Translations under genes and position numbers: made by a program | Part shown: positions 2,183 through 6,309 of the stretch, piece by piece | How the letters are laid out: each line of letters starts with the position of its first letter | How positions within the stretch are numbered: the stretch's first letter is position 1 | Assembly: GCA_014381035.1 (NCBI GenBank) | Contig: JACMIS010000226.1 | Coordinates: 1-6,309, forward strand | Length of the DNA: 6,309 nt | DNA from: Armatimonadota bacterium | GTDB lineage: Bacteria; Armatimonadota; Armatimonadia; Armatimonadales; Armatimonadaceae | Direction: 5' to 3' | The notes under the pieces: generated by a model | Databases searched by the model: none | What the model was told of the DNA's origin: nothing | What the model saw: the letters and a program-made list of their open reading frames with translations, nothing else

Positions 2183-3073
2183 ATGAGTGAAACAACCATC
2201 GAATTACTGGCAGACTATGCCTGCGACACCGGCGAAAACCCCCACTATCACCCCGCGGAAAATTGCGTCTACTGGACCGATATCCCCGCCGGAAAACTGT
2301 TCCGGTATGATCTGGCGACCGGGCAACATAACATCTGCTACGAAGGCGAACCCGTCGGCGGTTTTACAATGCAGGAAGACGGTTCCCTGCTACTTTTCAT
2401 GGCACGCGGCGCGATCAAGGCGTGGCGCGACGGAAAATTCGTCGGCACGGTGCATGAGGAGATCGCGGACGAGCGGGAAACTCGCTTCAACGATGTTTTT
2501 GCGGACCCCGAAGGGCGTGTCTTTTGCGGCACGATGCCTGCGCCCGACCGACCGGGACGCTTGTATCGCCTCGATACCGACGGCACATTGACCATAGTAC
2601 TTGAAGGCATCGGCTGTTCCAACGGGATGGGCTTCACACCGGACGGCAAGCACATGTACTACACGGATTCGGCGGCAAAGACGATCACTCGTTTCGCCTA
2701 CGACCGGAAAACCGGTGCCGTTTCCGACGGAAGCGTATTTATCACCGTGCCCAGAGAACCGGGCGAAGGTGGTCCCGATGGCATGACGGTGGACGCCGAC
2801 GGCAACCTCTGGTCGGCACGATGGGGCGGCGGATGCCTCGTCCGCTACTCCGGCGAGACCGGTCAGGAGATAGACCGTGTTCGGATTCCCCGCGTGACCG
2901 AGGTCTCGTCTGTGAGTTTCGGCGGTCCCGGCTACACTCAGATGTATGTCACAACCGCGAGTGGACACAAGAAGGGCGAGGGCAAGGAAGATGCCGGGGC
3001 ATTATTCTGCGTCACGGTGCCGGGAGTGCACGGCGTGCCCGAATTCGTTTCCCGTATCCGGCTCAACTCGTGA
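2183..3073 (+). CDS. SMP-30/gluconolactonase/LRE family protein (probable sugar lactonase)
   Basis: This is a 296-residue six-bladed beta-propeller of the SMP-30/regucalcin family, which hydrolyses aldonolactones with a single bound metal. The metal ligands of human SMP-30 (Glu18, Asn154, Asp204) have clear counterparts: E18 in TGENPHYH, N147 in CSNGMGF and D199 in GGPDGMTVD. The substrate-side Arg101/Asn103 pair is matched at the same numbers in RFNDVFADPEGRVFCGTM. Blade repeats such as FTPDGKHMYYTDS and VDADGNLWSARWGGG are plain. No signal peptide is visible, so the enzyme should be cytoplasmic. The start is forced because an in-frame TAA sits two codons before ATG 2183. It is probably the last gene of the operon with the FAH and aminotransferase genes and may open a lactone to the acid that feeds them. 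The substrate is not known. Confidence 0.93.
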   Translation: MSETTIELLADYACDTGENPHYHPAENCVYWTDIPAGKLFRYDLATGQHNICYEGEPVGGFTMQEDGSLLLFMARGAIKAWRDGKFVGTVHEEIADERETRFNDVFADPEGRVFCGTMPAPDRPGRLYRLDTDGTLTIVLEGIGCSNGMGFTPDGKHMYYTDSAAKTITRFAYDRKTGAVSDGSVFITVPREPGEGGPDGMTVDADGNLWSARWGGGCLVRYSGETGQEIDRVRIPRVTEVSSVSFGGPGYTQMYVTTASGHKKGEGKEDAGALFCVTVPGVHGVPEFVSRIRLNS

Positions 3074-3124: not shown

Positions 3125-4168
3125 TTATCGCGTCGGACCGCAGGAGGCGCGGATGGTCAGTTGCGTCGGGAGAAGGACGTGCCGCGCCGGACCGTCCGCG
3201 CCCTCGATGCGGTCGAGCAGGATTCGCGCCGCGTGTTCCCCGAGGGCACGCATCGGGAGAGTGACCGTGGAAAGGGGCGGGTGCATGTATTCCGCCGTGG
3301 ACGCGCCGCCGAAGCCCATCAACGCCATCTCTTCCGGGACCTTTTTCTCGGCGTCGTGCAGGGCGCGGAGCACGCCCATCGCGGTGCTGTCGGTCGCGGC
3401 GAGTATCGCCGTGACGCCCTTCCCCGCCTTGTCGGCTAACAGTTCGCGACCGGCTTCCAGACCTTCGAGCGAGCGTTCGTTGCGCGGGCGTAACGCCTCC
3501 CATGGGATCGGCTCCAGCCGCGCTTCCTTCATCACGGATTGGTAGCCCTGTAGCCGTTCCCGCTGGGCGGTATTCATGCGGTGCGGGGCGTAGACATAGG
3601 CGACGCGCTTGTGTCCGAGGCGGAGCAGATGGCGGGTCGCGGTACGGGCGGCGGAAAAGTTGTCGGCGGCGACATAGTCGGCGTCGAGTCCGGGCACGAA
3701 GCGGTCCACGAACACGAACGGTATCTTTTCTGCCTCAAGGGCGCGATAATGCTCTGTCGCGGGCTTGGTGTCGGGCGATTCCGGGTCGTCGTCGCTCGGC
3801 GCGATCAGGAAGCCATCCACGCGTTTCTGTTTCAACGCCTCGATCTGGGTTTCTTCCTGCCGTAGTTCGGACGGGGCATAATCCAGAAGCAGGTGATAAT
3901 CGCGCTCCGCCAGGACCGACTGCGCCCCGGCTAATACTTCGCTCCAGAACGCCGACGAGGTGTAGCCGACGACCGCCCCGATGGTGAACGATTTCCCGGA
4001 ACGTAAGCCCCGAGCGAGGTGATTTTTCCGGTAGCCTAAATCCGACGCGATAGAAAGGATCCGCTCACGGGTCTCACGCCGGATGCGGGGATCGTTATTG
4101 ATGGCGAGGCTGACCGTGGAAACATCCACGCCCGCTTCCCGCGCCACATCTTTCATCGTTGTCGCCAT
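3125..4168 (-). CDS. LacI-family transcriptional regulator
   Basis: This is a 347-residue repressor-type protein. Residues 4-50 form the LacI helix-turn-helix (MKDVAREAGVDVSTVSLAIN), followed by the hinge helix HLARGLRSGKS with a leucine at 55 where family members insert into the minor groove. From about 62 onward comes the periplasmic-binding-protein-like effector and dimerisation domain: IGAVVGYTSSAFWSEVLAGA, KRVDGFLIAP, FVFVDRF, ILAATDSTAMGVLRAL and the closing HPPLSTV segment. The usual GF-D-D motif reads GFGG (285-288), so the effector-site Asp of LacI (D274) and PurR (D275) is Gly here. The ATG at 4168 gives the standard MATTMKDVA start; ATG 4156 is the only near alternative, and neither has a good ribosome site. 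The gene converges on the lactonase gene 51 bp away. Regulation of that operon is plausible but unproven; autoregulation is also usual in the family. Confidence 0.95.
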   Translation of the reverse strand: MATTMKDVAREAGVDVSTVSLAINNDPRIRRETRERILSIASDLGYRKNHLARGLRSGKSFTIGAVVGYTSSAFWSEVLAGAQSVLAERDYHLLLDYAPSELRQEETQIEALKQKRVDGFLIAPSDDDPESPDTKPATEHYRALEAEKIPFVFVDRFVPGLDADYVAADNFSAARTATRHLLRLGHKRVAYVYAPHRMNTAQRERLQGYQSVMKEARLEPIPWEALRPRNERSLEGLEAGRELLADKAGKGVTAILAATDSTAMGVLRALHDAEKKVPEEMALMGFGGASTAEYMHPPLSTVTLPMRALGEHAARILLDRIEGADGPARHVLLPTQLTIRASCGPTR

Positions 4169-4312
4169 CGTCGGTTGGTCGGAATCCTATTTCAAAGGTT
4201 TGGAAAGACGAAAAGTGCCTGTATCCTTGCTTGTATCGTACCCATCTCCTCAATTTTCACCACGGAGTTGCCTGTTTCCTCCTGTGGTTTGATAGACGTA
4301 TCGAATTCTGTA
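4169..4312 (-). other. Leader/promoter region of the LacI-family gene
   Basis: This stretch between the rhodopsin terminator and the LacI start must hold the LacI promoter, but no clean -35/-10 pair stands out. It contains a perfect AGGAGG on the - strand (4278-4283) without a start codon at normal spacing, a 12-base-spaced direct repeat of TGTATC (4220-4225 and 4232-4237), and a GATA-N4-TATC inverted repeat (4291-4302). None looks like a classic LacI-family operator with a central CG and long arms. Confidence 0.35.
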
Positions 4313-4329
4313 GATAGGGGCACGAAAGA

Positions 4330-4361
4330 ACGCCCCCTATCCATGTCTGGATGAGGGGCGT
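4330..4361 (-). terminator. Intrinsic terminator of the rhodopsin gene
   Basis: The hairpin has outer arms ACGCCCC (4330-4336) and GGGGCGT (4355-4361) and inner arms ATCCA (4339-4343) and TGGAT (4348-4352). A C/A mismatch and a T-G wobble join the two parts, and the loop is TGTC. On the - strand it starts 15 bases after the rhodopsin stop codon and is followed by a short T-rich run (TTCTTTC). This is the right order for a factor-independent terminator that separates the rhodopsin from the downstream LacI gene. Confidence 0.8.
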
Positions 4362-4376
4362 CCATATGGTACTGCC

Positions 4377-5177
4377 TTAGTGGGCTGGCGCGAGTGTCGA
4401 CTCGTGAGCAGAATCCGCGCTCTCCGGAGCATTCGCCCGCTCCCGCTGGGTCTTGATGTGTGCGATGGCATAGATCATCAACCCGTACATGGGTTTGGCG
4501 ACGACGTCGGCGATGGAATACCCTACCTGCTTACCGACCAGCGCGACCGCCGGGTCGAGGTTGAGGAGCGGCAGGAGGTACGCAATCGGATAGACCCCCC
4601 AACTCGCCAGCAGCAGCAGGCGCAGACCGAACAGTAAACCCTTCACATCGTCGGTTTCGCGAGTCATCGCCGCCCCGACCTCGGTCCAGAGGACGTAGAG
4701 AATATAGACGAACGGTATGGTGCTCAGTGTCCCCCAGAATAGTCGTGTGGTCGTGTCCGTCGCTACTTCTCCGGGATAACCCAGTACGATCATCAGGACG
4801 GCAGCGATCACCAGGTTGTTGATCAACGAACCGCGCTTCTGCCCAGTCACGTAAAGCACCGCGATAAGTTCCACGAGCAGCAGCGGAACGGTCAGTAACC
4901 AGTCGGCATAACGGTACGCCTCGTTGAAGAGTTCGTTCGTCGGGGCGTAACCTGTTTCGGTATGGCTGAACGCCGCGTTCCAACTGGAAAACATCCGCAC
5001 ATAGTGGTAGCAAGCAATACCAACGATAAGCGCACCGACTTCCAACACGCGCTGATACTTGTAGGCGACGGTATTACGCGCCAGCAGAAAGAACACGAAC
5101 GCGGCACCCATCGCCGCGATGGTGAACGACAGGGAATTGTATACGAGGTCATATTGACCTAACGACAGATTCGGCAT
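4377..5177 (-). CDS. Xanthorhodopsin-type light-driven proton pump
   Basis: This is a 266-residue, seven-helix microbial rhodopsin of the inner membrane, probably pumping protons outward. Helices lie at about 10-33, 42-62, 87-110, 117-136, 144-166, 182-204 and 212-241. Helix C (YRYADWLLTVPLLLVE) gives the DTE set: acceptor D92, T96 and donor E103. H58 (YHYVR) is the His partner of the acceptor, D224 the second counterion and K228 (DVVAKPMYG) the retinal Schiff-base lysine. Spacing from D92 to H58, E103, G149, D224 and K228 equals that in Gloeobacter rhodopsin. G149 in FWGTLSTIPF corresponds to Gly178 there (Gly156 in xanthorhodopsin), which opens the wall for a carotenoid antenna. L100, at the proteorhodopsin 105 tuning site, favours green absorption. 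There is no signal peptide, and the tail after 245 is hydrophilic. The gene has its own terminator and a divergent crtY neighbour. Confidence 0.97.
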   Translation of the reverse strand: MPNLSLGQYDLVYNSLSFTIAAMGAAFVFFLLARNTVAYKYQRVLEVGALIVGIACYHYVRMFSSWNAAFSHTETGYAPTNELFNEAYRYADWLLTVPLLLVELIAVLYVTGQKRGSLINNLVIAAVLMIVLGYPGEVATDTTTRLFWGTLSTIPFVYILYVLWTEVGAAMTRETDDVKGLLFGLRLLLLASWGVYPIAYLLPLLNLDPAVALVGKQVGYSIADVVAKPMYGLMIYAIAHIKTQRERANAPESADSAHESTLAPAH

Positions 5178-5186
5178 GTTTCTAAA

Positions 5187-5192
5187 GCTCCT
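5187..5192 (-). promoter_or_regulatory. Ribosome binding site of the rhodopsin gene
   Basis: On the - strand AGGAGC lies 9-10 bases before ATG 5177. It supports this start, which also gives an N-terminus (LSLGQYDLVYNSLSF) that aligns with the first helix of Gloeobacter rhodopsin. Confidence 0.75.
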
Positions 5193-5218
5193 ACGCTAAC
5201 AAAAAGTAGAGTGTCTTT

Positions 5219-5233
5219 TCACAGTCGTTGTGA
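5219..5233. repeat. Inverted repeat TCACA-N5-TGTGA in the rhodopsin leader
   Basis: A perfect 5-bp inverted repeat (arms 5219-5223 and 5229-5233) lies 41 bases upstream of the rhodopsin start. It could be an operator half-site pair or a small RNA hairpin in the leader. The arms are those of a CRP/FNR-type site but in the opposite order (TCACA first), so I do not assign it to that family. Confidence 0.35.
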
Positions 5234-5512
5234 TACACGTATGGCTTCGTTCCATGGCACCCCCAAAAAACCGCGTTTGGCATTATCCTTTCTAATTTGC
5301 GATAGGTGCCACGCTCGATACCCCAAGGTGTGTCCTATACAACTACCATCGAAAAAATAAGTTCTCATTTTTTTTAACTATGTTTGAAACTGCGAGACGT
5401 GTGGTAGTGCCCAACGAGAATCGGGAACCGCCGCCCCGAGCATGACGTTGCGTGGGGTAGCGGATTATTCGCGAAGCAGTTTTACATCTCACAAACAGAA
5501 GGTTTGACGCCC

Positions 5513-6309
5513 ATGTACAAAGACAGTACGCCACCGGTATTCAGCCACGCGAAAGATGAGAAGACGCCTGCAGGGCAGGGGCAAAACATGGACACCGACA
5601 CGCCCTACAAATACATCATCCTCGGCGCGGGGTGCGCGGGGCTTTCGCTCTGCTGGTATCTGCTGGAAGCGGGTGTGCGCGACCCGATCCTGATTCTGGA
5701 TCGCAAGACCGATTTCGGGAACGACCGGACATGGTGCTTCTGGGATACGGAGCCGACCCCGTTCACGCACCTTGCGACGCACCGATGGGATACATGGGCG
5801 GTGCGTTGGAGCGACGGCGGGTCGGACATCCGCGCTTCGTCTCCCGCGACGCCTTACGTGCGATTGCGTGGTGCCGACTTTTATGCCGCGGTACTCGCCC
5901 GGATAGGGGCGCACACGAATGTGACGGTGCGACTCGGGGTGTCGATCACGGGCGGGTACCGTGATGAACCGGGGGGCGTTCGTGTCCCGACCGGTGTCGG
6001 TGATTTTCACGGCGAGATACTGTTCGATGCCCTCGCCCTCGGCAGTCCCCGATTCCCCGTCGCGCATCCCGGCGACGTGACTTTTCTTCAACAGTTTTTC
6101 GGGCAGACAATCCAAACGGAGTCGGACGTGTTCGACCCACAAACCGTGACCCTGATGGACTTCGCGAGACCAAGGGCAATGGCAAAGACGGATACGGCGA
6201 TACGATTTATGTACCTGTTGCCGATCTCTTCCCGCGAGGCACTGGTCGAAAACACTCTCTTACTGCCGACACGGGGAGGCGCGAAAGACGCCCTCGCGCC
6301 GGAGGAGAA
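5513..6309 (+). CDS. crtY: Lycopene beta-cyclase, CrtY type (3' partial)
   Basis: The frame stays open to the right edge (265 whole codons). The protein is a flavin-dependent lycopene cyclase that forms beta-ionone rings at lycopene ends, giving beta-carotene. Numbered from ATG 5513, it shows an FAD Rossmann motif, YIILGAGCAGLSLCWYL (34-50), with the strand-ending acidic residue in ILILD (59-63), and the family motif NDRTWCFWD (70-78). Further on come FLQQFFGQTIQTE, FDPQTVTLMDF and YLLPISSREALVENTLL, the conserved core of CrtY/CrtL cyclases. About a third of the usual length is missing. Two starts are possible: ATG 5513 (AGAAGG, 10-base spacing) or in-frame ATG 5588 (AGGGG, 6-base spacing). 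The latter puts the FAD motif at the usual distance from the N-terminus and may be the true start. The enzyme supplies precursor for retinal and ring-bearing carotenoids, which fits the divergent rhodopsin neighbour. Confidence 0.93.
   Translation, partial: MYKDSTPPVFSHAKDEKTPAGQGQNMDTDTPYKYIILGAGCAGLSLCWYLLEAGVRDPILILDRKTDFGNDRTWCFWDTEPTPFTHLATHRWDTWAVRWSDGGSDIRASSPATPYVRLRGADFYAAVLARIGAHTNVTVRLGVSITGGYRDEPGGVRVPTGVGDFHGEILFDALALGSPRFPVAHPGDVTFLQQFFGQTIQTESDVFDPQTVTLMDFARPRAMAKTDTAIRFMYLLPISSREALVENTLLLPTRGGAKDALAPEE

Follow-up and report, generated by a model that had tools for sequence, protein, structure and literature searches.

A xanthorhodopsin-type gene with a conserved candidate carotenoid pocket in an Armatimonadota bacterium

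The 6,309-nucleotide stretch of DNA analysed here (the window; Armatimonadota bacterium, assembly GCA_014381035.1, contig JACMIS010000226.1) carries at 4377-5177, on its minus strand, a gene for a rhodopsin of 266 amino acids that, by its sequence, is a member of xanthorhodopsin subgroup I. We suggest that this protein is quite probably a light-driven outward proton pump that uses a 4-keto carotenoid as antenna in vivo; that it has a carotenoid antenna of any sort is decidedly likely. In this model, retinal would be attached to Lys228 (codon 4494-4496, minus strand), which aligns with the Schiff-base lysines K257 of Gloeobacter rhodopsin (GR) and K240 of xanthorhodopsin (XR). On illumination, a proton would pass to Asp92, paired with His58, with refilling from Glu103, a route that we presume from XR and GR. 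The lycopene cyclase encoded divergently from the rhodopsin would make beta-carotene, which Blh would cleave to retinal. With Gly149 (codon 4731-4733, minus strand), helices E and F would have a gap between them next to the retinal ring. The end ring of a 4-keto carotenoid would most likely fit this gap, the carotenoid lying along a helix F slot that is XR-like at the mapped positions, and the bound pigment would pass absorbed light to retinal. Homology suggests the open site between helices E and F, as it does carotenoid binding and energy transfer, while the preference for a 4-keto pigment is suggested by the hydrophobic pocket floor and, weakly, by CrtO-like genes of relatives.

A rhodopsin of xanthorhodopsin subgroup I

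The gene starts with an ATG at 5177-5175, and translation of the plus strand of the same interval is interrupted by stops; the initial annotation had named no strand. Its assignment as a xanthorhodopsin-type gene for a presumed proton pump draws on the open reading frame, on Pfam (Bac_rhodopsin, PF01036; 146.1 bits against a cut-off of 24.6), on solved structures and on a structure model. In the alignment to GR, H58, D92, T96, E103, G149, D224 and K228 correspond to H87, D121, T125, E132, G178, D253 and K257. The DTE motif, the His near the acceptor, the Schiff-base Lys and the counterion Asp are all present, and from the motif we infer pumping. The initial annotation had placed these seven residues at the same numbers and had taken Gly149 as the counterpart of XR Gly156 and GR Gly178. 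The alignment bears out both, and the three glycines share one column with Kin4B8 Gly153. Asp92 and Gly149 are 57 residues apart, as in GR, psXR and thermophilic rhodopsin (TR), but XR has a distance of 60, and Kin4B8 and RlActR have one of 59. The argument is therefore carried by the homologous column and not by the residue count, and a spacing of 57 was rejected as evidence that the protein is akin to XR.

By sequence, the closest solved structures are psXR (9wfa), GR (6nwd) and XR of Salinibacter ruber (3ddl), with Kin4B8 (7ytb, 8i2z) and TR (5azd) also close. A structure model was built from a 118-row alignment (mean predicted local distance difference test score, pLDDT, 91.2; predicted template modelling score, pTM, 0.87). 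Its best match by fold in the PDB is GR, with psXR, XR, Kin4B8 and TR also among the best, a likeness that is expected at such identity and gives no size for the gap between helices E and F. The identity is 54% to GR (root-mean-square deviation 1.4 over 245 residues), 55% to XR, 54% to TR and 49% to Kin4B8.

A tree was made from 60 of 210 aligned rows, picked for spread. In this tree, the window forms a pair with the protein P0001 (100/99), lies in a 12-row set with the loci L001-L003 (100/97) and in a 16-row set that adds L015 (97/94); psXR groups with cyanobacteria and not with this Armatimonadota clade. The window also falls inside a 57-row group with XR, GR, Kin4B8 and TR, which stands against three cryorhodopsin rows (100/100) and whose internal order is unsettled. 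Of the comparison set that the initial annotation asked for, the tree covers XR and GR, and proteorhodopsin was compared by score (101 bits for green proteorhodopsin against 278 for GR).

The candidate carotenoid pocket

The listed homologs are the best 120 of 5487 proteins and the loci the best 80 of 415, both chosen for likeness to the window; counts of the glycine therefore describe relatives and not all rhodopsins. All rows of the 118-row alignment (the window plus 117/120 listed homologs) have Gly, as do 207/210 rows of the wider one, among them 120/120 listed proteins and 78/80 loci. Ala occupies the column in loci L035 and L042 and in the reference CryoR2; CryoR1 has Gly. Conservation of this kind indicates that Gly149 is not there by chance. 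It also makes Gly the norm among the sampled relatives and not a special trait of the window.

Around the glycine, residues that published work connects with the pocket are kept as well. The XR slot residues Thr160, Leu194, Leu197, Ala198, Gly201 and Ile205 are named as different in subgroup II (PMC3646047). These six are the positions that the text of that paper names out of a full list of 16, and at them the window is identical to XR in 6/6, GR and Kin4B8 each in 4/6. In the helix F slot, GR has Trp and Leu where the window, like XR, has Leu and Ala, and GR stands elsewhere in the tree. In GR, replacement by Gly of T179, F185, P226 or I227, and of T182 in combination, lowered canthaxanthin binding, G178W stopped it and replacement of S221 had a smaller effect (PMC9151804). 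The window equals GR at all five of the lock residues T179, T182 and F185 and the align residues P226 and I227, and its Ser192 corresponds to S221. A further paper describes a conserved pocket Tyr and a floor whose residues are polar where the pigment is a 3-hydroxy xanthophyll, those of XR and GR being hydrophobic (PMC12308411). The Tyr is kept (Y200 in the window, 207 in XR, 204 in Kin4B8). At the floor (Kin4B8 positions 208/209), where a polar pair would mark users of 3-hydroxy xanthophylls, the window resembles XR and GR in its hydrophobic residues, L204 and L205, whereas Kin4B8 has the polar pair Ser-Tyr that is tied to these pigments (PMC12308411). Such a polar floor occurs in 0/48 rows of the window's clade against 18/80 loci overall; the 48 rows comprise the window, P0001-P0041 and six loci that duplicate listed proteins at 99.6-100% identity, that is, 42 proteins.

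By the criterion of PMC12308411, the hydrophobic floor favours 4-keto over 3-hydroxy carotenoids, a choice that the initial annotation had left open. Its proposal of a pump able to use a second chromophore stands in so far as a DTE-type rhodopsin of the xanthorhodopsin group has the Gly together with the mapped published determinants; the Gly alone is a weak sign. Because the mapped pocket is kept and not only this residue, the structural argument is better founded than that annotation could tell. XR has in common with the window the Gly, the Tyr, the hydrophobic floor and the mapped slot, but has three extra residues between acceptor and Gly, and its Phe157 and Asn191 are Thr150 and Gly184 in the window. 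TR shares the Gly and YRYADWLLTV in helix C, but differs by a Ser at the position of Thr153 and by a Thr-Trp floor. Members of xanthorhodopsin subgroup I usually keep such a pocket.

Retinal and carotenoid genes in relatives

Among the matches listed, the nearest protein is 96% identical to the window rhodopsin and is labelled Armatimonadota bacterium by one source and, by another, a metagenome-assembled genome (MAG) of Fibrella. The nearest loci are in Armatimonadota MAGs (L001, L002, L003 and L015; 75-78% identity), and L004, labelled Roseiflexaceae, has 75% identity. The genomes behind the four Armatimonadota loci are G001, G002, G003 and G006, with a completeness figure for G001 only: the contig of L001 belongs to ES-bin-147, which is 92.2% complete with 2.04% contamination and is on a list of MAGs with phototrophy genes, the ES MAGs having been recovered from exposed soil by a glacier in the High Arctic (PMC7701988).

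In L002 and L003, the rhodopsin gene is divergent from a lycopene cyclase gene that is followed by a gene for a Blh-type 15,15'-dioxygenase, and the cyclase of the window is 75% identical over 268 residues to that of L003 and 60% over 227 to that of L002. In L015, blh lies downstream of the rhodopsin gene on the same strand. Phytoene synthase and, above cut-off, the CrtI family are present in 4/4 of the Armatimonadota genomes and Blh in 3/4. The lycopene cyclase family is above cut-off in 4/4; matches of more than 150 bits over nearly the whole model occur only in G002 and G003, and the remaining ones (24-36 bits) cover only model positions 1 to 151-165. G006, in which the rhodopsin gene adjoins blh, has only a partial PF05834 match of 24.4 bits, so this genome may use another cyclase type. 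L001 in G001 presents a rhodopsin gene with a fasciclin-domain gene next after it, and without a Blh match or a full-length cyclase match in the genome; missing contigs are possible.

As for enzymes that could modify the pigment, the families PF00487 and PF04116, which we take to include CrtW and CrtZ, respectively, were found above cut-off in 0/4 Armatimonadota genomes, with one sub-threshold PF04116 match in G002. The CruF-type hydratase family PF04240 was found in 0/4 (1/6 genomes overall, G004). P450 genes are present in 3/4, as are CrtO-like genes. Applied to seven other rhodopsin-bearing genomes, the CrtO model passes its cut-off of 1000 in two, both cyanobacteria (1088 and 1111 bits); of the remaining five, four have best matches of 254-343 bits and one has none. 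Source names among the 120 listed CrtO-like homologs are NAD(P)/FAD-dependent oxidoreductase, phytoene dehydrogenase-like protein and phytoene desaturase. A comparison of 17 of 20 CrtO-like proteins (L176, L178 and L179, including Trueperaceae and Meiothermus homologs, were left out) gave a tree in which the order of groups is open and which carries a long-branch warning. On account of the sub-cut-off scores, the other source names and the open tree order, we treat the CrtO identity as unproven and regard the Armatimonadota proteins as homologs with a putative, unproven ketolase activity. Of 19 genomes from the class to which G003 belongs, six have a rhodopsin homolog and 11 a CrtO-like protein; because these genomes are too few and too closely related, a link between the two cannot be claimed. 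One member of this class with an intact rhodopsin gene (L160) has, in addition, a second, distant rhodopsin-like stretch with 33% identity and one internal stop (L162, G019:C150).

Antenna pump or alternative

Several observations weigh against a 4-keto antenna. Because the Gly is near-universal in the sampled rows and is also present in CryoR1, it discriminates poorly, and a Gly equivalent is insufficient, Octadecabacter rhodopsins with it having failed to bind salinixanthin (PMC3646047). In the tree, the window's clade is joined to neither XR nor GR in particular. The column of XR Asn191 is variable in this clade (Asn 29/48, Gly 7/48), and the contact with the carotenoid tail may be weaker because Gly184 of the window replaces an Asn that in Kin4B8 (Asn188) can touch the far ring of the carotenoid (PMC12308411). 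Among the genomes, no Blh match was found in G001, which has a rhodopsin, and no CrtO-like match in G006, which has both rhodopsin and blh. The Armatimonadota CrtO-like proteins score 338-362 bits against the cut-off of 1000, and their identity to cyanobacterial CrtO is 33-38%, that to actinobacterial homologs 27-35%; the CrtO model gives sub-cut-off matches in three control genomes (e.g. Caulobacter) as well, and CrtO-like proteins are found in 5/6 class members with a rhodopsin and in 6/13 without.

A proton pump of the same family may instead have inherited the Gly as an unoccupied gap, with the pocket open but the host without a suitable pigment and, hence, no antenna. We consider this unlikely, albeit a serious contender. 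It is in keeping with a Gly that is kept in 207/210 rows of relatives whether or not binding is known and that is not sufficient for binding (PMC3646047), with the lack of PF00487 and, above cut-off, of PF04116 matches in the four Armatimonadota relatives, and with the unproven function of the CrtO-like proteins. However, the Gly is kept together with the mapped slot and lock residues and not alone. In addition, Trp at the position of Gly178 improved both the stability and the pumping of GR (PMC9151804), so that closure of an unused gap might be expected. Alternatively, the antenna could be a 3-hydroxylated xanthophyll of the zeaxanthin or lutein type, as in Kin4B8, which has the pocket Gly, Thr and Tyr in common with the window. 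Some P450s elsewhere hydroxylate beta-rings, and P450 genes are present in three of the four relatives. We nevertheless hold such a pigment to be improbable: CrtZ-type enzymes were found above cut-off in 0/4 relatives, with the single sub-threshold match in G002, and the Leu-Leu floor is unlike Ser-Tyr in Kin4B8, Thr-Asp in KR1 and Thr-Glu in EinA29G6 (PMC12308411). Finally, as the function of the rhodopsin is read from sequence only, it could be a light sensor or a pump for another ion rather than an energy pump. This is very improbable, given that the DTE motif and the His are intact, that the closest solved relatives include GR, XR and Kin4B8, which published work describes as proton pumps, that a cyclase of the retinal route adjoins the rhodopsin gene, and that there is no transducer gene among the six annotated genes of the window.

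Beyond the proposed proton pump with a 4-keto antenna, a more specific version is doubtful at present: an Armatimonadota-centred clade of antenna pumps might use a 4-keto carotenoid made by the divergent CrtO-like enzyme, with the altered tail contact at Gly184 suiting a different pigment from salinixanthin and echinenone, perhaps a keto carotenoid with a single ring. Because CruF, the pointer to a salinixanthin-like pathway, was found in 0/4 of the relatives, the one-ringed pigment is kept for this speculative version only.

Genomic context and upstream region

On the plus strand, the window begins with genes for a class III aminotransferase (2-1312, cut by the window edge), a fumarylacetoacetate hydrolase family protein (1354-2148) and an SMP-30/gluconolactonase family protein (2183-3073), followed on the minus strand by a gene for a LacI-family regulator (3125-4168) and the rhodopsin gene. 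The CrtY-type lycopene cyclase gene (5513-6309, plus strand; PF05834, 91.1 bits over the part present) is cut by the window end. The divergent intergenic region between rhodopsin and cyclase genes (5178-5512) contains, in the minus-strand leader at 5273-5293, the stretch AGAAAGGATnnTGCCnAAnGC, which lies upstream of the rhodopsin start, at a distance of 95 bases in the window, 109 in L003 and 88 in L001, and is weaker in L004. Between this stretch and the start, a CAC/GTG inverted repeat (TCACA-ACGAC-TGTGA; 5219-5233, minus strand) has look-alikes in relatives. Based on three to four sequences, candidate roles for the stretch and the repeat are those of an operator, a leader or a small upstream reading frame. 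Scans of 4200-5700 gave one promoter-like site against 1.0 expected and four terminator-like sites against 1.3 expected, which are nothing to build on, and the single Rfam match, with an E value of 0.59 and 21.4 bits (gathering score 65), was dismissed.

Some organism labels among the loci look questionable (L005, L068 and L077): a rhodopsin 68% identical to that of the window is in a Gracilibacteria MAG (coverage ~2 by its title), and two MAGs labelled Bifidobacterium breve have rhodopsins.

Implications

Xanthorhodopsin-type genes affiliated with Armatimonadetes are known from Mushroom Spring (PMC5459899), ES-bin-147 is among the MAGs with phototrophy genes (PMC7701988), and expression of rhodopsins from Armatimonadota has been reported for hot-spring mats (PMC11788075). 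Because such genes were already published, the finding is modest. In the Mushroom Spring study, a retinal-making oxygenase was not found for most rhodopsin owners (PMC5459899); two of the relatives described here (L002 and L003) have blh beside the cyclase gene. In the literature searched, which leaves most subscription papers outside its coverage, no carotenoid-binding experiment on an Armatimonadota rhodopsin was found. As far as this literature goes, an Armatimonadota-centred antenna pump would, if true, be the first experimentally shown antenna rhodopsin of the phylum. If the pocket is used, carotenoid-aided light capture by rhodopsins would reach into a poorly cultured phylum, the Armatimonadota, and the clade, whose pockets all have a hydrophobic floor, would offer natural variants on which the published keto/hydroxy rule could be tested.
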